IMG/VR virus record: IMGVR_UViG_3300030116_000146
Span: 1 to 37,064 of that record
DNA from: a virus
DNA length: 37,064 nucleotides
Strand: one strand, 5' to 3'
Within the stretch, counting starts at the first letter, position 1; each line of letters begins with the position of its first letter. The notes under the pieces were generated by a model. The model did not search any database. It had not been told where the DNA came from and was given only the letters and a program-made list of their open reading frames with translations. The translations under genes and the position numbers were made by a program. Shown piece by piece: positions 2,173 to 36,838 of the stretch.

Positions 2173-2372
2173 ACACACCCACGCACCAAATCATAATTCA
2201 ATTTCATAATTACAACTTGTAAGTTATTTTAGGGGGAAATAATTGTATAGTAAGTTTACCTATTTTCAATTTCAACATTGTTTCTTTTGGTATTAGATAT
2301 ACTAATTGCGATATGAGCAATAGTGTATCCTATAAGATTTACGAAGGTATAAGAAAATAAATTAAATATTAA

Positions 2373-2439
2373 GAAGTTTTTGGCAATATAGAAATTTCCA
2401 AAAATTTCTTGTCCTATAAATTTTATTGTATTTTATTTG
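2373..2439 (+). promoter_or_regulatory. Late promoter element 1 (block A)
   Basis: CCAAAAATTTC (2398-2408) is followed by exactly 23 bases and a -7-like box TTTATTTG (2432-2439, one mismatch to TAnnTTTG). A perfect inverted copy of the consensus, GAAGTTTTTGG, lies at 2373-2383. The same element with the same 23-base spacing stands before the other two late blocks, at 9709 and 22761. It precedes the gene at 2469. Confidence 0.65.
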
Positions 2440-7875: not shown

Positions 7876-8262
7876 ATGTCAAAAGATAAATTAGATGAGC
7901 TAAACCCTTATAAGGACGCAGCTAAGAAATATTTTCCAAATGGGGGCGAAATAAACACTTCAGGGCGTAGAAAAGGTGATAAGACCAAGAACACTGTGAA
8001 AGTGACTAAGATTAGCCGAAATGCCCTTACATGGGCTTTAGAAGGTCATTCTACTAAGATTAGAATGGCTCTTGATGCTTTATTTGAAGAAAATCCTGAA
8101 GCGTACATAAATGCAGTATCTAAACTGTTAAATTATACAGTACCTAAACTTTCTTCTGCAGAAATAAACGACAATACGACTAAAAAGGTCAAGATAGAAC
8201 TTAATGATGACGTGAGTATAGATGATTTAAGAGCAAAACTTGACGAAATTGACAACAACTGA
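7876..8262 (+). CDS. terS: Probable small terminase subunit, 128 aa
   Basis: The 128-residue protein starts with NPYKDAAKKYFPNGG, then a basic stretch GRRKGDKTKNTVKVTKISRNALTWALEGHSTK, and ends in an acidic tail. A Lys/Arg-rich N-terminal half with a helical segment at about residues 50-90, encoded just upstream of and overlapping the large terminase gene, is the standard place for the DNA-recognition subunit of the packaging motor. The identification rests mostly on this position and size. A canonical HTH is not obvious. It starts at ATG 7876, two bases after the previous stop. Confidence 0.6.
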   Translation: MSKDKLDELNPYKDAAKKYFPNGGEINTSGRRKGDKTKNTVKVTKISRNALTWALEGHSTKIRMALDALFEENPEAYINAVSKLLNYTVPKLSSAEINDNTTKKVKIELNDDVSIDDLRAKLDEIDNN

Positions 8263-9694
8263 TAAGCAATTACGTTACGCAATAGAGAAAAAACTCTGTG
8301 AATTATCATTTTATGAGTTTTTTAAACAAGCATGGCATATTGTAGAGCCATCAGTTCCTTTGTCTACAAACTGGCATCACAAGTATTTATGTGATATTTT
8401 ACAAGAAGAATGTGAAAGAATCATAGATAACAAGCCAAAAACAAAGGATATAATCATAAATATACCTTTTCGTAGTACAAAATCACTTCTTGTAACAGTT
8501 ATGTTTCCTGTATGGGCTTGGATAAAGAATTCAAAGCTAAGATTTATAACAGCTTCATATTCTGCAGATTTATCTATAGAACACGCAACAAGAAGCAGAG
8601 ATATAATTAACAGTGACTGGTTTAAAGATAGATGGGGTGAGGTTTTTCATATAAAGAAAGACCAAAACTTAAAAGCAAGATACGAGAATAATTTTTTAGG
8701 TGTTCGGAGAGCAACATCTGTTGGGGGTACTGTAACAGGGCAAGGTGGGGATTTTTTGATAGTAGATGACCCTGTTTCACCTCAACACGCAGCATCAGAA
8801 GTAGAAAGAGAAAAAGCAAACGAATGGTACAGAACTACGTTCTATTCAAGACTTAACAATCCTTTGACTGGTGTTCGTATAGTTATTATGCAGAGAATAC
8901 ATGATAACGACTTAAGTGGCTTTTTGCTTTCAGATTCTGACAGCAGATTAAGACATAAACATATTTGCATACCTGCAGAATTATCTGATGATTTAAAACC
9001 TAAGAAACTTAAAGAACATTATGACACAAATGGTTTGTTTTGGACAGACAGATTTAGTAGAGAGATACTTGATGATTACAAGGAAGCTCTTGGTAGTTAT
9101 GGATATGCAGGGCAACTAATGCAAACACCTACACCTCTTAATAGTGGTATGATAAAAACAGAATGGTTTAAGATTGATAAGTTTAAGATAGGAGATGATA
9201 GAGCTGTAGTAAACTTTGTTATTGACCCTGCATATACTGCAAACGAAAAGAACGACCCCTCAGCTTTACTAGCGTACACTTACTTTGAAAACAAATGGCA
9301 GATTATTGATTGTGTCAATGTACATAAAGAGTTTCCTGACTTAGTTAGATTTATACCACAGTGGGTACAAAAGAATGGCTACACTAATAGAAGCAGAATC
9401 TATGTAGAGCCAAAGGCATCAGGTAAATCCATAGTACAAACATTACAAAAAGAAACAGGATTAAACATAAGAGAGGACAAGCCACCATCAAAAGATAAGG
9501 TTGCAAGAGTGCAAGATATATCTGCAAGTCTAGAATCAGGAAGGGTTAGCTTATTACATGGCAAATGGAATGAAGAGTTTTTGCAACAGCTTGTAAAGTT
9601 TCCCTCAGCAAAGCATGACGATATGGTAGATTGTTTAGTTATGTCTATAAACAAACATATGTGGAATAACGCTAAGATTGTTTATTTTTCGTAA
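8240..9694 (+). CDS. terL: Large terminase subunit (ATPase/nuclease), 484 aa
   Basis: This is the ATP-driven DNA-packaging motor and headful or cos nuclease. The ATPase domain shows a Walker A variant at residues 76-83 (PFRSTKSL), Walker B at 173-177 (LIVDD) and a following GVRIVIMQRIHDNDLSG segment near 211-227 typical of the family. The RNase H-like nuclease domain has candidate acidic residues D329 (VIDPA), E390 (VEP) and D460/D461 (KHDDMVD). The length is normal. Translation probably starts at a TTG at 8240, inside the last 23 bases of the previous gene, because no ATG fits and the reading frame is well conserved from there. It is the last gene of late block A; late promoter element 2 begins at its stop codon. 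Confidence 0.93.
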   Translation: MTKLTTTDKQLRYAIEKKLCELSFYEFFKQAWHIVEPSVPLSTNWHHKYLCDILQEECERIIDNKPKTKDIIINIPFRSTKSLLVTVMFPVWAWIKNSKLRFITASYSADLSIEHATRSRDIINSDWFKDRWGEVFHIKKDQNLKARYENNFLGVRRATSVGGTVTGQGGDFLIVDDPVSPQHAASEVEREKANEWYRTTFYSRLNNPLTGVRIVIMQRIHDNDLSGFLLSDSDSRLRHKHICIPAELSDDLKPKKLKEHYDTNGLFWTDRFSREILDDYKEALGSYGYAGQLMQTPTPLNSGMIKTEWFKIDKFKIGDDRAVVNFVIDPAYTANEKNDPSALLAYTYFENKWQIIDCVNVHKEFPDLVRFIPQWVQKNGYTNRSRIYVEPKASGKSIVQTLQKETGLNIREDKPPSKDKVARVQDISASLESGRVSLLHGKWNEEFLQQLVKFPSAKHDDMVDCLVMSINKHMWNNAKIVYFS

Positions 9695-9750
9695 AAACTT
9701 TGCGATTACCAAAAACTTCTAGCGTGTTATAAAAAAAAACTATATTATTG
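9693..9750 (+). promoter_or_regulatory. Late promoter element 2 (block B)
   Basis: CCAAAAACTTC (9709-9719), exactly 23 bases, then the -7-like box TATTATTG (9743-9750, one mismatch to TAnnTTTG). A second half-site AAAAACTT (9693-9700) lies 18 bases upstream in the same direction. There is no TTTG at the -33 position. It starts in the stop codon of the terminase gene and stands 21 bases before the start at 9772. Confidence 0.65.
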
Positions 9751-19093: not shown

Positions 19094-21985
19094 ATGGCAA
19101 GAAGAGAATTAGCAATAGAAGTAAAAGTATCAAAGGTACAAGAGATAGCAAAGTTAACTGCTAGTCTTAAAGAACTTAGAAAAGAACAAAGAGAGCTTAC
19201 TGCACAACTAGCAAAAAAAGAAAAGGTTAGTAAGGCAGAAGCAGCAAGTTTTGACACTAGATTCAGACAAATAAAAAAGGAGTCTGACGCCTTAAGACAA
19301 AGAAAAAAAGAATTACAAGATAATATAGCTGCTACTACAAAAGCTACAAAAAGCTCTAACGGTATGGCAAAGCAGTTTATTAAAGGAGCTGCTGCAATAG
19401 GTATAGTAGTAACTGCCTTTAGAAGATTAAATAATCTTGTAAGTGGTATGGTTACAACCTTTACTCAATTTGAGTTTACAATGGCTAAAGTAAACGCTGT
19501 TTCAGGTGCAACAGAGCAAGAGTTTCAAGCCTTAACAAAGAGTGCAGAAGATTTGGGTAGAAGTACATTTTTTACTGCAGAGCAAGTCGCACAGCTACAA
19601 TTAAATTTTTCTAAACTTGGGTTTACTTCAGGAGAAATACTTGCAGCACAAGAAGCAACTCTTAACTTAGCCACAGCAACTGGTAGTGACCTAGCAAGAG
19701 CAGCAACAGTAGCAGGAGCTTCTGTAAGAGGTTTTGGTTTAAGTGCAAATGAAACAAGTAGAGTTGTAGATGTTATGGCTGTGTCATTTAGTAGTTCAGC
19801 TTTAGATATAGAAAAGTGGTCAACAGGTATGACAAAGGTTGCACCTATTGCAAAATCGGCAGGTTTTTCTATAGAAGATACAGCAGCAATATTTGCACAA
19901 TTATCAAACGCAGGTATAGAAGCGTCAATAGCAGGTACATCTTTAAGGAATATTTTTCTTGCAATGCAAGACCCAAATTCAGATTTAGTAAAATCTTTTG
20001 GCAGAACTATACACAGTTTAGATGAGTTAGTACCAGCCTTAAATAAATTTTCTGAAGAGGGTGGAGACCTTGCTGCTATTATGCAGGTTGTAGAAAAACG
20101 TCAGGCAGCAGCTTTTGAGCAAATGATTACAAGTAGAGAAAGAACCTTAGAGTTGCGAGATGCTCTTAATTTAGCAAATGGTGAGGCACAAAGAATGGCT
20201 GATATAATTGGTGATACATTACAAGGAAGATTCTTAAGGTTTAAGTCTGCAACAGAAGGTCTTTCAATATCTTTACTTAGAAACTTTACTGAATCCTTAC
20301 AATCTGCTTTAGAAAAAGCTACTGATTTTGTAGGTGTATTAACAGAAAACACTAAAACAATAGTTAACCTAATTAAACTTTTAGGAACAGCAATTAAAAC
20401 CTTTGCAGCTTATAGGATAGGAATGGTTGCAATAACTGCTGTTACTAGACGCTTTACAAAAGCAACATTAACTACTACTGCAGCAGTTCAGGGTTTTGCT
20501 AGAGCATTAGCAACTACTGGAGTTGGTCTAGCTGTAATAGCTCTTGGACAACTAGCAGCAAAGTATTTACTTGTTGCTGATGCTGCAGATAAAGCTGCAG
20601 ACGCAGAAAGAAAAAGGCAAGAAAACATAGCAAGTGATATTGAATTTATAGACAATCTTTTAAATGTGGCTCTAGCTAATACAGCTTCTCAATCAGAAGA
20701 AAACATAAAGGTTTTTGGTGGTTTTTTAGATGCTTTGAAAAATCAGAAAGAACAATACTTAAATCAACTTGACAGATTAAAAAATGCAGAAGGTGAATAT
20801 TATAGCAATTTGAGTTATGAAGAAACAAAAAAGAAAGTACAAGCAGAAGAACAATTAAAAGTATTAAATAAACAAATACCTCTTTTAGAAGAAAAAATAG
20901 AATTAGAAGTAAATAACTTAAAAGAATTAAATAAAAGCAGTGGTCTACAAACAAAAGAGTCTAAAGATTTGATTGCTCTTAAAGAAGAAGAAATTAGAGT
21001 AGAAAAAGAAAAACAAGCAACTGACTTAGCTAGTTTAGCAATTAAAAATCAAAATCTAGCACGACTACAAGAAGAGCTGAAAGAATTGCGAGAGTATGGA
21101 CTACTGAAAAAAGAAGAAAGAGATGTAGAAAGAGAAATATTTGAGTTTAAAGTACAAAGAATGAATCTTGGTTTGACAACAGAAATAGAGAACGCCGAGA
21201 TAAGAAAACAATTAGTGCAACAAGAGATAGACATGATAAAAATGTTGCTTACACAACAATTAGCTTATGGTGTAAGCAGAGAATCTTTAATAGAAAGATT
21301 AATACAGTTAGAAAAAGAATTAACAGATGCAAAAACAACTGAAAATAAAACAAGGCTAGAAGATGATATTGTGACAGCATCTCTATCAGGACAAAATGCT
21401 TTACAAGCAGTCAAGTCGGTTATAAGGGCGCATGTAATGAAAGCTGTTGCTGGACATATAGAAAAGATAATTACTAACCCCCTTATACCTTTTCCATTAA
21501 ATTTAGCACTAGCAGCAGGTGCAGGTATAGCTGTTTCTACTCTAGTAGACAATGCTTTAGCTAAGATAGCACCAGCAGAAAGTGCAGGAATATTAGGTGG
21601 TGGTGGTTCTAGCGCTGCTAATGTATCTGCAGGTACAAGAACTACATACGCTAGAGGTGGTATGGTGCATGGTAGGTCACATGCAGAAGGTGGTGAAAAG
21701 TTTGCAGTAGGTGGTAGAGTAGTTGAGTTAGAAGGTGGTGAAGCTGTAATAAACAAAAGAAGTACAGCTATGTTTAGAAATCAACTGTCTGCTATGAACT
21801 CTGCAGGAGGTGGTGTAAAGTTTGCAGATGGTGGTTTATTAAATATGCCATCATTTACTACTGCACAGTTTGATGCACTCAATAGTCAAACAAATATAGG
21901 TCAACAAAAAGTGGTTGTAGTAGAGGCAGACATCACAGACGCACAAAATACAGTAAGTACAATTCAATCAGAAGCAACAATATAA
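19094..21985 (+). CDS. Tail tape measure protein, 963 aa
   Basis: This protein sets tail length and is ejected with the DNA. It has an N-terminal coiled coil (about residues 15-80, Lys/Glu/Arg-rich), then the conserved tape-measure core at about 115-380 (FEFTMAKVNAVSGATEQEF, SAEDLGRSTFFTAEQVAQL, ISIEDTAA-type repeats), a hydrophobic stretch at 410-500, a second long coiled coil at about 540-760, and a Gly-rich C-terminus with ARGGMVHGRSHAEGG and VVELEGGEAVINKRST, an ending common in phage tape measures. By the usual 0.15 nm per residue, the tail would be about 140 nm. It is the largest protein of late block B. Confidence 0.92.
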   Translation: MARRELAIEVKVSKVQEIAKLTASLKELRKEQRELTAQLAKKEKVSKAEAASFDTRFRQIKKESDALRQRKKELQDNIAATTKATKSSNGMAKQFIKGAAAIGIVVTAFRRLNNLVSGMVTTFTQFEFTMAKVNAVSGATEQEFQALTKSAEDLGRSTFFTAEQVAQLQLNFSKLGFTSGEILAAQEATLNLATATGSDLARAATVAGASVRGFGLSANETSRVVDVMAVSFSSSALDIEKWSTGMTKVAPIAKSAGFSIEDTAAIFAQLSNAGIEASIAGTSLRNIFLAMQDPNSDLVKSFGRTIHSLDELVPALNKFSEEGGDLAAIMQVVEKRQAAAFEQMITSRERTLELRDALNLANGEAQRMADIIGDTLQGRFLRFKSATEGLSISLLRNFTESLQSALEKATDFVGVLTENTKTIVNLIKLLGTAIKTFAAYRIGMVAITAVTRRFTKATLTTTAAVQGFARALATTGVGLAVIALGQLAAKYLLVADAADKAADAERKRQENIASDIEFIDNLLNVALANTASQSEENIKVFGGFLDALKNQKEQYLNQLDRLKNAEGEYYSNLSYEETKKKVQAEEQLKVLNKQIPLLEEKIELEVNNLKELNKSSGLQTKESKDLIALKEEEIRVEKEKQATDLASLAIKNQNLARLQEELKELREYGLLKKEERDVEREIFEFKVQRMNLGLTTEIENAEIRKQLVQQEIDMIKMLLTQQLAYGVSRESLIERLIQLEKELTDAKTTENKTRLEDDIVTASLSGQNALQAVKSVIRAHVMKAVAGHIEKIITNPLIPFPLNLALAAGAGIAVSTLVDNALAKIAPAESAGILGGGGSSAANVSAGTRTTYARGGMVHGRSHAEGGEKFAVGGRVVELEGGEAVINKRSTAMFRNQLSAMNSAGGGVKFADGGLLNMPSFTTAQFDALNSQTNIGQQKVVVVEADITDAQNTVSTIQSEATI

Positions 21986-22184: not shown

Positions 22185-22436
22185 ATGAATAGTGTAATAA
22201 AAAAAGCTGCTAATAATATTCCAAAAGATATTAAAGAAAAGCTGATACATTACATTAACAAAAACAATAATAAGATAGATAGTGTTAATGAATATGACAT
22301 GGACTCTATATATTATTTATTTAACGCTTGGCATAAAATATTTCCTAATATAAGACAAGATGTAGGTTGCACAAGCTGTAGAAAAGCAGTGGTTAAATTT
22401 TTTAATCAGGTATATCAAGAATGGCAAGATGTCTAA
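22185..22436 (+). CDS. Small hypothetical protein with CxxC, 83 aa
   Basis: This 83-residue helical protein has an N-terminal Lys/Asn-rich part, a YYLFNAWHKIFPN segment and a CTSCRKAVVKFFNQVYQEW C-terminus. The single CxxC followed by an amphipathic helix could be half of a metal site or a redox pair. It follows the zinc-ribbon gene without spacing and overlaps the next gene by eight bases. Function is unknown; similar small proteins occur beside tail genes in flavobacterial phages. Confidence 0.6.
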   Translation: MNSVIKKAANNIPKDIKEKLIHYINKNNNKIDSVNEYDMDSIYYLFNAWHKIFPNIRQDVGCTSCRKAVVKFFNQVYQEWQDV

Positions 22437-22749
22437 AAGAAAAAATAAAGGCTTGGTAGTTATAGAATATTTAGATGTTCTTGAAAAAGAACTAAAAAAA
22501 AGATTTGGTGACGACCCAACTACTAAAGACATTGTAAGGCATTTAGTTGAAAAAGGTATGATTGAACCTAAAAGATTACGCAACTATATGATTATATATG
22601 ACTTTGATAAATTACTTGTAGGTAATGAAGGTAGTAGGACGCATACATTTATGGATTTATCCATAAAATATGACATAACAGAACGTCAAGCACAAACAAT
22701 AGTTTACAAAGACAGAAAGAAGTCTATGTGGACATATAATATAGCATAG
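22429..22749 (+). CDS. HTH-type DNA-binding protein, 106 aa
   Basis: The 106-residue basic protein has a helical N-terminal half and, at about residues 70-98, a segment HTFMDLSIKYDITERQAQTIVYKD that reads as a helix-turn-helix: a first helix ending in KYDIT and a recognition helix ERQAQTIVYK. It is the last gene of late block B, directly upstream of late promoter element 3 (which starts two bases after its stop). It could be a late regulator or a DNA-packaging or maturation protein. It is one of three HTH candidates for the factor that binds the late promoter motif. Confidence 0.6.
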   Translation: MSKRKNKGLVVIEYLDVLEKELKKRFGDDPTTKDIVRHLVEKGMIEPKRLRNYMIIYDFDKLLVGNEGSRTHTFMDLSIKYDITERQAQTIVYKDRKKSMWTYNIA

Positions 22750-22751
22750 TA

Positions 22752-22802
22752 AAGTTTTTTCCAAAAACTTCGCAAGATTCTCGTTTCTTGCAAATATTTT
22801 TG
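22752..22802 (+). promoter_or_regulatory. Late promoter element 3 (block C)
   Basis: CCAAAAACTTC (22761-22771), exactly 23 bases, then a perfect -7 box TATTTTTG (22795-22802). An inverted half-site AAGTTTTT (22752-22759) abuts it, so AAGTTTTT-TCC-AAAAACTT is a near-continuous palindrome. There is no TTTG at the -33 position. The protease start codon at 22808 is only five bases after the -7 box, so the mRNA would be leaderless or nearly so unless a later start is used. Confidence 0.65.
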
Positions 22803-22807
22803 CATTT

Positions 22808-23812
22808 ATGAATAGATGGTATGATTTCAAAAATGAAGCGTCTCGTGGTATTGTAGATGTTTATATTTTTGACGAGATTGGTAACTTTGGCGTTTCAGCT
22901 CAAAGTTTTATAGAAGAAATTAAATCACATAAAGGTAGCCCTATGAACATACACGTCAACTGCGTTGGTGGTGATGTGTTTGAGGGTATGGCTATTTATA
23001 ACGTGATAAAGAAAAGGTCTGCAAAGACTACTGTTTATATAGAAGGTATAGCAGCAAGTATGGGTAGTGTTATTGCTTTAGCAGCAGATAGAGTTATTAT
23101 GGCAGAAAACAGTTTGTTTATGATTCATAATGCTTGGGGTGGAGCAACTGGCGAAGCTCGTGATATGATGAAAACAGCAAAACTACTAGAAAAGATAAGT
23201 GGAGAAATAGCTGATATATATACTAAAAAAACAGGTATGCCTTATGACAAGGTTAAAGATATGATGGACGAAGAGACTTGGTTAAGTGCTGAAGAAGCTT
23301 ACGACTTAGGTTTTGTTGACTCTATCTCAGATGCTATTAAAGTAGCAGCTAAATATGATGTTTCTAAATTTAAAAATATAACAAGTGAGGAAATATCTAG
23401 TAAATTAAGTATTAATCAAAATAGCAAGAAGATGACTGATGAATTAAAAAATTGGTTTAATGCTAAAGTTGAGGACATTATTAAAAGTGTAAAAGCTGAA
23501 AAGTCTGAGGCAGAGGCAGAAGAAGTTGTGGTAAATGTTGCTGATAATGATGAGATAGTTGCAAAACTTACAGATTTTGAAGTAAAGGTTACTGAACTTA
23601 ATGGTCTTATTGCAGACTTAGAAGGAGAAAAATTAACTCTAACTGAGGAAGTAGAAAGACTAAATGCTTTAGCTAATAAAGCTGAGGCAAAGGGAACTGA
23701 AGTAAAAACTGAGGGAGACCCTAATGTAAGAGAGGATAAGGTTGTAGATGCAAACGCGCATAGTTTTGCTACGTTAGCAGATAGAATTAAATCTAAGTAT
23801 AATAGTAATTAA
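22808..23812 (+). CDS. Head maturation protease (ClpP-type) fused to a scaffold-like domain, 334 aa
   Basis: Residues 1-180 are a ClpP/S14-type prohead protease: GGDVFEGMAIYN, then GIAASMGS with nucleophile Ser84, MIHNAW with His107, and the acidic segment DEETWLSAEEA (154-164) that supplies the third residue in relatives. Residues about 200-334 are highly charged, with a coiled coil near 250-290 (heptads in VTELNGLIADLEGEKLTLT) typical of a scaffolding domain. A protease-scaffold fusion directs capsid assembly and then digests itself. The major capsid gene follows 17 bases later. It heads late block C. The ATG at 22808 is preferred because the protein matches from its first residues. Confidence 0.9.
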   Translation: MNRWYDFKNEASRGIVDVYIFDEIGNFGVSAQSFIEEIKSHKGSPMNIHVNCVGGDVFEGMAIYNVIKKRSAKTTVYIEGIAASMGSVIALAADRVIMAENSLFMIHNAWGGATGEARDMMKTAKLLEKISGEIADIYTKKTGMPYDKVKDMMDEETWLSAEEAYDLGFVDSISDAIKVAAKYDVSKFKNITSEEISSKLSINQNSKKMTDELKNWFNAKVEDIIKSVKAEKSEAEAEEVVVNVADNDEIVAKLTDFEVKVTELNGLIADLEGEKLTLTEEVERLNALANKAEAKGTEVKTEGDPNVREDKVVDANAHSFATLADRIKSKYNSN

Positions 23813-25631: not shown

Positions 25632-25856
25632 ATGGCAGATTATAAAGTAAACGAAAAACACGCAGGTAAAAGCGTAATTTTTTCTAGTAATGACGGCAAG
25701 TCATTAAAACTATATCTTGACACAGCAAGTGCTGAAGAACTAGCATATGCATATGAAGATTTTAATAGTGGTGATTTTATAATAAAAACTGAAAAGTCAA
25801 GTGAAAAAAAGAGCAGTAAAAAAAGCATCTCAGATAAAAAAGGCAGTAAAGAATAA
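25632..25856 (+). CDS. Small hypothetical protein, 74 aa
   Basis: The best start is ATG 25632 (MADYKVNEKHAGKSV); an in-frame ATG at 25569 would add 21 residues just after the hairpin and looks less protein-like. The 74-residue product has a small beta-type core (VIFSSNDGKSLKLYLDTAS) with a helix SAEELAYAYED, and a very Lys/Ser-rich tail. It overlaps the portal gene by 56 bases in another frame. I suspect a head-associated or connector accessory protein from position only. Confidence 0.6.
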   Translation: MADYKVNEKHAGKSVIFSSNDGKSLKLYLDTASAEELAYAYEDFNSGDFIIKTEKSSEKKSSKKSISDKKGSKE

Positions 25857-27114
25857 TACCTTTGAATTTGGTGTATTTAACTTAACTGTACCTAACACTA
25901 TAAGAGAGCCGAAAAATTTAGATACGGTAAACACAAAATGGATACCGTTTGGTGAGGACAATTTATTTCCTCAGTATTTAGCAGAGCTAAAAAGAAAATC
26001 ATCAACACACAGAAGCGTACTAGCACAAAAAACTGTATTTACAAGTGGTGCTAAGTTTGTTTGTAGTGAAGAGAACGTAAGAGAATACATAGAAGATGTA
26101 AACGCAGATGGCGAGTCTTTAAGAGATGTATTTAAAAAATTAGCAGATGATTACTACACTTTTGGAAATGCATTTTTAGAATGTGTTATTTATGATGGTG
26201 GTGTAAACATGTATCATCTAGACGCTACAACAGTAAGAGTAGCAAAAAACAAGAAAGAAGTTTATGTAAATCCTAACTGGAGAAAGTATTTTGATGACGA
26301 ATCAAAGATGCATAAACTACCAATACACCCTAACATCAGAGGCAATAAGTTTGTAATACATTACAAAGATTACGAACCTACATTTAATTTTTATGGATTA
26401 CCTGATTATGTTGCAGCACTAGAACATATAGCTGTAGATTTTGAGATAGGTAAATGGAATCACACAAAGTTTTTAAATGGTTTCCAACCATCAGCTATTG
26501 TAGAGATTAGTGGTGATATGGGTGAGGAAGAAGCACAAAAAATGGTTACTGAGGCGCAAAAGAAATTTGTAGGTGAAGGTAATAATGGTAAGATATTATT
26601 TATTGTAAAAAATGGTGACACATCACCTGCAAACGTACAGATAATAAAAGATGACCAAGAAGGTAGCTGGATAGACTTACAAAAGATAACTGACCAAAAC
26701 ATAATAACTGCTCATAGATGGCAACCGTCTTTATCAGGTATAGTAAGTTCAGGTAAGATGAATAACACTGGTAGTGAGATTAGAATAGCTTATGACTTAG
26801 CTATGACTACAGTAATAAAAGATACGTCAGAAATGTTACTAAATGGCATAAGAACAGTTATGTTAAAGTATTTAAGTTTTGACCCTAAGAGTATTCTTAT
26901 ACATTACGAGCCACCAGTATCTTTTGTAAATGACATTGACATAAAATTAGTTCTTACTATAAACGAGCAAAGAGCTATGTTAGATGAAGATTTACCTATG
27001 CTAGAAGATGGAGATATGTTTATAGCAGACAGGCAATACATTGTTACATCTACTGATATTAACAGTGATGGTGAAATGGAAGAAGAAGAAGAAATAACAG
27101 TAACACAGGAGTAA
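25801..27114 (+). CDS. Portal protein, 437 aa
   Basis: The portal is the dodecameric ring through which DNA enters and leaves. The sequence shows the typical Bacteroidota-phage portal pattern: WIPFGEDNLFPQYLAEL near residues 47-63, SSTHRSVLAQKTVFTSGAKF, the helical LRDVFKKLADDYYTFGNAFLE near 107-127, NGFQPSAIVEIS, and QNIITAHRWQPSLSGI followed by GSEIRIAYDLAM. It begins with a basic GTG-initiated N-terminus (25801) inside the end of the previous gene and ends in a Glu-rich tail. The connector gene starts one base after its stop. Confidence 0.8.
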   Translation: MKKRAVKKASQIKKAVKNNTFEFGVFNLTVPNTIREPKNLDTVNTKWIPFGEDNLFPQYLAELKRKSSTHRSVLAQKTVFTSGAKFVCSEENVREYIEDVNADGESLRDVFKKLADDYYTFGNAFLECVIYDGGVNMYHLDATTVRVAKNKKEVYVNPNWRKYFDDESKMHKLPIHPNIRGNKFVIHYKDYEPTFNFYGLPDYVAALEHIAVDFEIGKWNHTKFLNGFQPSAIVEISGDMGEEEAQKMVTEAQKKFVGEGNNGKILFIVKNGDTSPANVQIIKDDQEGSWIDLQKITDQNIITAHRWQPSLSGIVSSGKMNNTGSEIRIAYDLAMTTVIKDTSEMLLNGIRTVMLKYLSFDPKSILIHYEPPVSFVNDIDIKLVLTINEQRAMLDEDLPMLEDGDMFIADRQYIVTSTDINSDGEMEEEEEITVTQE

Positions 27115-31037: not shown

Positions 31038-31067
31038 TTTGTAGTTAAAAAAATATTTGTATATTTG
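31038..31067 (+). promoter_or_regulatory. Strong Bacteroidota-type early promoter
   Basis: TTTG (31038-31041), an 18-bp spacer and a perfect -7 box TATATTTG (31060-31067). The gene at 31109 starts 41 bases downstream. Two exact copies of a 12-base unit (GATAAAGAAAAA, 31001-31024) lie just upstream and could act as an AT-rich UP-like element. Confidence 0.75.
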
Positions 31068-32237: not shown

Positions 32238-32525
32238 ATGAGAAATGATTATGAAAAAGTAAGAAGCTCTAGGAACGAACTAGAAGCTATACTAAGAATT
32301 AGAGGAGTATCTAAACAAAAGTTTGGTAGAATTATAAATGTAAAGGGCAGTACAATAGAAAAATATTTAGACCACCCTTACTACTTAAGATACTATCAGA
32401 TGGAAAGACTAGCAAGGTTTTTTAACATTACCGTTAAAGACATTGTAGATATTATTGAGGTAGACATTGAAGCAGATATAGTAGTTGAGGGAGAAGAAAA
32501 TTATGTCAGTATACCAAAAATTTAA
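32238..32525 (+). CDS. Xre/Cro-like HTH regulator, 95 aa
   Basis: Residues about 12-65 have the five-helix layout of a Cro/C1-type HTH: RNELEAILRIRGVSKQKFGRI (helices 1-2), NVKGSTIEKYL (recognition helix), and QMERLARFFNITVKDIVD (helices 4-5). The acidic C-terminal 30 residues could mediate dimerisation. A repressor or early-late switch factor is likely, but no integrase is present, so it need not be a lysogeny repressor. Candidate targets are the ACCCTTA elements at 30952-30992 or the late promoter motif; this link is inference. Confidence 0.65.
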   Translation: MRNDYEKVRSSRNELEAILRIRGVSKQKFGRIINVKGSTIEKYLDHPYYLRYYQMERLARFFNITVKDIVDIIEVDIEADIVVEGEENYVSIPKI

Positions 32526-36331: not shown

Positions 36332-36641
36332 AGCACGTTACTGTGCTAGTTTAGGTGGCATTAGAACGTCTTACAAACAAGCAGTGAAGGCTAAGGCTAC
36401 TGGCTATGTAAAAGGCTTTCCTGACCTACAGATTTGTATGCCTGTTGATAGGGGGGGGGTGGATAACAAGGGTTATCATGGCCTGTTCCTTGAGATAAAA
36501 AAAGATAAGAGGTCATATGCAACAAAAGAACAAAAAGGTTGGATAGAGTATTTGAATAGTGTAGGTTACTACGCTGCAGTTACTAAGGGTTTTGATGAAA
36601 CAGTACAAGTAATAAAAGATTATTTTAACGGTAAACTATGA
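36267..36641 (+). CDS. VRR-NUC domain nuclease, 124 aa
   Basis: This is a stand-alone VRR-NUC protein of normal phage length. The active-site pattern is GFPDL (Asp53) and FLEIKKD (Glu76, Lys78), with the conserved Gln89 and a typical N-terminal EEEVQKLVVKYLQIKYP helix. Such enzymes cut branched DNA and may serve in recombination or packaging. It probably begins at TTG 36267, as the conserved helix starts there. A run of nine G (36451-36459) lies between Asp53 and Glu76. It overlaps the next gene by four bases (ATGA). Confidence 0.8.
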   Translation: MRNQEEEVQKLVVKYLQIKYPKARYCASLGGIRTSYKQAVKAKATGYVKGFPDLQICMPVDRGGVDNKGYHGLFLEIKKDKRSYATKEQKGWIEYLNSVGYYAAVTKGFDETVQVIKDYFNGKL

Positions 36642-36838
36642 GTGTAAATGTTTATGAAAGAAAGGATAGACGAGGTGGTGGCTATTCTAAAAGAAAATTT
36701 ACTTTTGAGGAAGCTCAGAAGATAAGGATAGAATATGAGCAAGGCTTGTATACACAAGAGCAAATTGCAAAACGATATGGTGTTGACCAAACTATCATCA
36801 ACAAAATTATCAAATACAAAACTTATATTAAAGACTAA
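36638..36838 (+). CDS. Small HTH DNA-binding protein, 66 aa
   Basis: Residues about 20-62 form a helix-turn-helix of the resolvase/transposase type: FTFEEAQKIRIEYEQGLYTQ, then EQIAKRYGVDQTIINKIIKYKTY, where GVDQTIINKIIK is the recognition helix. The N-terminus is basic (RKDRRGGGYSKRK). It may be a regulator and is a candidate binder of the late promoter motif or the adjacent terminal repeats. It is the last gene before the repeat region; its ATG overlaps the nuclease stop. Confidence 0.65.
   Translation: MSVNVYERKDRRGGGYSKRKFTFEEAQKIRIEYEQGLYTQEQIAKRYGVDQTIINKIIKYKTYIKD

Follow-up and report, generated by a model that had tools for sequence, protein, structure and literature searches.

Four putative late promoters with a shared upstream element point to a probable phage-specific activator in a virus with Bacteroidota-type core promoters

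Temporal control of gene expression is almost undescribed in Bacteroidota phages, and no description of late promoters of such phages was found among open-licence papers. A motif that recurs at the starts of gene blocks in one virus record from IMG/VR raises the question of how its late genes are switched on. By the window we mean the whole stretch of DNA analysed, a virus record of 37,064 bases (67% A+T) whose plus strand carries the phage genes. Matches to PHROGs placed the terminase at 8240-9694, the tape-measure protein at 19094-21985, the prohead protease at 22808-23812 and the portal at 25801-27114, and the gene blocks are called late here from their gene content. IMG/VR held 126 relatives of the window terminase (TerL). 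No cultured phage was close by TerL, the best being Croceibacter phage P2559Y at 44%, and a search of cellular genomes for relatives as a host clue found none. A Bacteroidota host is suggested solely by the type of promoter and by which cultured phages are nearest. For comparison, 30 related contigs were collected and oriented, every relative being a metagenomic contig; 17 genomes, window included, with terminases at least 83% identical make up clade A of what is a family of uncultured marine phages.

A preliminary description of this DNA had proposed that a composite late promoter, consisting of CCAAAAAYTTC and, exactly 23 nt further on, a TAnnTTTG-like box, stands at 2398, 9709 and 22761 and defines three late transcripts. 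We confirmed all three sites, each in the gap immediately 5' of a gene block. Their boxes are of the -7 type, but only the one at 22795-22802 (TATTTTTG) is a perfect TAnnTTTG. The number of promoters had to be revised. The exact motif occurs four times in the window, at 2373-2383 on the minus strand and at 2398-2408, 9709-9719 and 22761-22771 on the plus strand; Markov shuffles of order 1-3 gave an expectation of ~0.1 copies, and none of 600 shuffles reached four. The minus-strand copy, seen earlier as an inverted copy attached to the first site, is real and does lie 14 bases upstream, but it does not belong to that site: a separate box (TACCTTCG, 2349-2342) follows it at exactly 23 nt, and the window therefore holds four putative promoters, with the same 23-nt gap at all four:

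2398..2408, plus strand: upstream element of late promoter 1, CCAAAAATTTC; 32.0 bits, motif exact and box 23 nt further on
2432..2439, plus strand: -7 box of late promoter 1, TTTATTTG; box kept in relatives
From 2469, plus strand: block 1, putatively driven by promoter 1; virion proteins to terminase
2373..2383, minus strand: upstream element of divergent late promoter 4, CCAAAAACTTC; 23 nt to the minus-strand box
2342..2349, minus strand: -7 box of the divergent promoter, TACCTTCG; TACCTTTG in most relatives
9709..9719, plus strand: upstream element of late promoter 2, CCAAAAACTTC; 34.4 bits, just past the terminase stop
9743..9750, plus strand: -7 box of late promoter 2, TATTATTG; putatively drives block 2 (tail genes) from 9772
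22761..22771, plus strand: upstream element of late promoter 3, CCAAAAACTTC; 33.5 bits
22795..22802, plus strand: -7 box of late promoter 3, TATTTTTG; 5 nt 5' of the prohead protease ATG

The divergent arrangement is the same in 14 genomes of the clade. The promoter 2 element is conserved 3' of TerL in relatives, and the promoter 3 element is conserved both in relatives and in the distant clade C. A palindromic operator at the first site was ruled out, as the two copies are 14 to ~140 nt apart, depending on the relative, and each keeps a box to itself.

Across the 17 genomes of clade A we collected 58 syntenic sites, complete genomes having four each, by a procedure that required the 23-nt spacing, so that this count is no free measure of the spacing. 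The sites fall into four types: past the terminase, 5' of the protease, 5' of block 1 and divergent. The syntenic places without a 23-nt site are a few degenerate or deleted post-terminase copies (in G003, G012 and G014) and cuts at contig ends. With close relatives left out of its training, a matrix gave the four window sites 34.4, 33.5, 32.0 and 27.1 bits, while the next best place in the window scored 6.6 bits and 30 shuffles scored at most 8.6; the same gap between the sites and the remainder was observed in the other genomes. When the matrix was built from three site types, the held-out site of the remaining type ranked first genome-wide in 54 of the 58 cases, including all four in the window, which argues that the element is common to the sites and not merely inherited at each. 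As the preliminary description had expected of a genuine promoter, no additional copies lie inside genes and the sites stand at block starts in relatives. Its proposal of a shared composite late promoter with a sequence-specific upstream element finds strong support in the conservation, the fixed spacing and the way in which the clades diverge in concert; it counted one promoter too few and took the inverted copy for part of the first site.

What could the upstream element be doing? The positions in it that vary least spell out a direct repeat, RYTTC-N5-RYTTC, whose halves are separated by A's, and autocorrelation is highest at 10 bp; information reaches 2.5 bits at the C's, and the TTC positions are also conserved. 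Flavobacterium -7 boxes extend from T-12 to G-5, and transcription starts 4-5 nt further on (PMC6847099). Because of this span of the box, from -12 to -5, the repeat is predicted to lie at -46 to -36, centred near -41, which by this numbering is the place of class II activators. The 58 sites, all at 23 nt, share what defines a class II site, namely a sequence-specific element at a fixed distance, near -41 and abutting the core promoter. The core agrees with the sigma-ABfr -7 element TAHHTTTG, exactly at the protease site (TATTTTTG) and, in most relatives, at the divergent site (TACCTTTG), and the other two site types are near matches. The other half of a housekeeping sigma-ABfr promoter, a TTTG ~19-20 nt upstream of the -7 box, is not seen at the late sites: none of the 58, window's included, has a TTTG 17-22 nt 5' of the box. 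The earlier statement that two of the three plus-strand sites lack the -33 TTTG was correct as to the absence, but the TTTG is absent from all three. Canonical promoters, TTTG-N18-21-TAHHTTTG, lie between genes and before early genes such as 358, 31109, 33423 and 29864, and the early promoters reported at 298, 31038 and 33286 are indeed canonical in appearance. The missing TTTG proves little taken alone, since Flavobacterium johnsoniae itself has only a faint -33 element (PMC6847099).

As the best reading of these observations, we infer that a phage-specific activator acts behind the late promoters, and we give a probability of roughly 70% to their being class II-type, phage-activated promoters read by the host RNA polymerase. 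An alternative, named in the preliminary description as an appropriated polymerase, is that the element serves as the -35-like half of a promoter for an alternative sigma factor, of phage or host, or for an altered holoenzyme. One element at a fixed distance from the -7 box is what this would produce, and sigma region 4 is matched by the HTH of the protein encoded at 22429 (described below) about as closely as other HTHs are, which is background level. We consider it unlikely, as the -7 box retains the housekeeping TAnnTTTG form, the 23-nt gap exceeds the 18-21 nt of the canonical promoters in this genome, neither a sigma nor an RNA polymerase gene was seen among the proteins scanned, and the element changes from one phage clade to another, in step with a phage protein. 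That the element is instead a repressor operator, by which the late genes would be held off early, seems quite improbable. A Cro/C1-type protein is encoded early and the direct-repeat site adjoins the core promoter, but the site lies upstream of the core and not over it, and the fixed 23-nt spacing everywhere, together with the missing -33 element, fits recruitment better. An UP-like A-tract, or a chance likeness involving no specific factor, is very hard to reconcile with the conservation of the C's (2.5 bits) and of TTC, the occurrence of exactly four sites and their concerted divergence, even though an A4-5 tract is present and the genome is 67% A+T; we regard it as highly improbable.

Comparison between clades bears further on the phage-activated reading. 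In clade B (terminase at ~75%) all sites have changed, for example to TTGTA-N5-ATTAGG, at the same distance to the box, and a subclade (G019, G020 and G022) has intermediate element sequences. In clade C (protease 36-39% identical), CCAAAAATTTC-N23-box precedes the protease or the p6831 gene, and CACGAAAACTGC-N23-TACTTTTG lies before the 9772 homologue. That the sites have all changed in concert suggests a single trans-acting factor, which would serve every late site. In clade C2 a late promoter was found back to back with a canonical early promoter in one gap (L100:4880-5080, L118:7670-7860), the early promoter being TTTG-N20-TATGTTTG before the 31541 homologue.

Which protein might be this factor? 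Three HTH proteins of the window are candidates:

22429..22749, plus strand: best activator candidate, all-helical HTH protein of 106 aa; in all clades having the element
32238..32525, plus strand: rival candidate, Cro/C1-type HTH protein of 95 aa; HTH_26 E 5e-4, just below the cut-off
36638..36838, plus strand: less likely candidate, HTH protein of 66 aa; weak HTH_3/ParB matches

Searches with tblastn of the 22429 and 32238 proteins against phage records gave no match, and searches of the sequences of solved structures with the three HTH families gave weak, mixed matches only. Of the three, only the 22429 type is present in every clade, and its family counts at least 293 IMG/VR loci. No 36638 homologue was found in clades C and C2, in which some contigs are incomplete. 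An AF2 model of the 22429 protein is all-helical with a C-terminal HTH (pLDDT 86). Over 67 loci, some of them from the same contigs, the 51 in which its recognition helix reads ERQ(A/V)Q all have YT(T/G)C as the proximal half-site, and the 16 with helix ESQAQN all have TTAGG-like proximal halves; in a tree test the motif classes follow the clades, and the helix-motif association amounts to one or few events. The 22429 recognition helix shows no such agreement with the distal half-site (TTCC or TGTA). We rank this protein first, with about an even chance of being the activator.

With the same promoters, the activator could be the early Cro/C1-type protein at 32238-32525, which is HTH_26-like and belongs to the operon that follows the canonical early promoter at 31038, where late activators are usually encoded. 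Clades A, B and B' differ in the class of its recognition helix, and these classes agree with those of the motif, distal half-site included. No homologue was, however, found by HMM in the incomplete contigs of clade C2, a clade that has the element, and the single-sequence AF2 model is poor (pLDDT 46, unusable). We place the 32238 protein behind the 22429 protein, as a possible but rather unlikely activator. At the place of the clade A 32238 HTH gene, clade C2 encodes what looks like a DnaA C-terminal domain-like protein (L100:6066-6515, L118:8902-9309).

The 22429 model matched the folds of Mu C (Z 5.8 over 49 residues) and Mor (Z 5.2 over 70), at a background level that many HTHs equal. Among 12 members of its family, 10 matched phrog_836, annotated 'late transcriptional activator', weakly (best E 0.015), and one matched Pfam Mor (E 0.034), with no match above the curated cut-off. 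Homology of the 22429 protein to Mor/C was rejected: hhalign against Mu C gave a probability of 4%, and the GG..YIP beta-strand motif and the FNGRN before the HTH, present in the aligned Mor/C proteins, are absent from the 22429-family alignment. The 36638 HTH aligned with Mu Mor/C better than the 22429 protein did (hhalign 92% over 21 columns), probably as a generic HTH.

Under the phage-activated reading, a DNA-binding protein made by the phage would occupy both half-sites, on one helix face and next to sigma, and would recruit the polymerase once early expression has happened. The 22429-22749 HTH protein would most likely be that activator and would also reinforce its own late block. As its gene sits in a late block, this best explanation would need earlier basal expression of the protein. 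Simultaneously with the late blocks, the fourth promoter would yield a small RNA, which bears a hairpin at its 5' end, together with a 22-aa peptide.

The closest working analogue is phage Mu, whose C protein acts at four late promoters (lys, I, P and mom) from sites that lie immediately before the -35 region (PMC4461284). The two systems are alike in having four late promoters and a small phage HTH protein, here a candidate only. They differ in that the Mu C sites belong to enterobacterial sigma-70 promoters, whereas here a direct-repeat site is joined to a core with a Bacteroidota -7 box, and in the FNGRN and YIP motifs that the 22429 protein is without. The promoters of lambda CII contain a direct repeat with a 10-bp period, TTGC-N6-TTGC, around the -35 region. 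The 10-bp direct repeat is shared, but here it spans -46 to -36 and includes an A-tract, and no CII homologue was identified in this virus. In the middle promoters of T4 (MotA/AsiA), an activator box takes the place of an absent -35 element, and the -10 downstream of it is normal. The MotA box is centred near -30, unlike the element here near -41, and no AsiA-like protein was seen. With the Bacteroidota housekeeping promoter, TTTG/TANNTTTG, the late sites share a TAHHTTTG-type -7 box (PMC6847099); the -33 TTTG of that promoter is found at 0 of the 58 late sites, where an element further upstream replaces it.

The position of promoter 3 has a consequence for the protease transcript. The gap between the box and the protease ATG is 5 nt in 28 of 30 genomes and 4 nt in the other two. 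With a box 4-5 nt 5' of the ATG, transcription should start on or beside it, and the late protease mRNA is predicted to be leaderless.

The divergent promoter is predicted to start a minus-strand transcript at ~2337, in which two features were found:

2291..2334, minus strand: RNA hairpin with apex TTGCTCATATCGCAA, showing covariation; 5' end of the divergent transcript
2210..2278, minus strand: 22-codon ORF, MLKLKIGKLTIQLFPPKITYKL, 3' of the hairpin

Both main clades keep the apex TTGCTCATATCGCAA almost unchanged, and the window hairpin has a fold z of -3.55. In an alignment of 14 sequences, 91.9% of cells are paired and 7 of the 16 pairs show compensatory changes on both sides; slid controls were much worse. 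No Rfam model scored above its gathering score in 1800-2480. An exact 15-mer hairpin scan of IMG/VR returned, among the matches listed, many family members together with chance matches, and its count was not used. A short ORF is present in all 15 hairpin-bearing clade A genomes, with 22 codons in 14 of them and 29 in one. Over 14 genomes, pN/pS is 0.24 in the 22-codon ORF vs 0.99 just downstream, and its variable columns number 7, 5 and 20 at the first, second and third codon positions; by these substitution patterns the ORF is under purifying selection.

Considered as a whole, these parts might constitute a new late system of Bacteroidota phages, with a new family of small HTH activators of the 22429 type, four class II-type promoters, a structured RNA carrying a 22-aa peptide and a leaderless protease mRNA, a tentative picture to which we give somewhat short of even odds. 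A complete and compact regulon, with four sites, a fixed grammar and two or three candidate proteins, could here be read from sequence alone. The concerted site divergence beside a changed recognition helix would, if true, be a natural case of regulator-site coevolution. The analysis also points to a phage RNA and a micropeptide missing from the ORF list, which omits the 22-codon ORF because of its small size.

Several minor observations concern the surroundings of the hairpin RNA. Clades A, B, B' and D all have the hairpin, close to either the terminase operon or block 1. On the minus strand, at ~1990-2210 and 3' of the micropeptide, there are more conserved stretches (TATGAAATTGAAT, GTGTGTGT and TTACGGAATTT), and a GCAGG...CCTGC hairpin near 1987-2031 looks like a terminator common to convergent transcripts. 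In clade B (L154-L161, L164-L165), TATAAAATTGAAC is repeated on both sides of the hairpin RNA, and several clade A genomes have TATGAAATTGAA as the hairpin-flank counterpart of this repeat.
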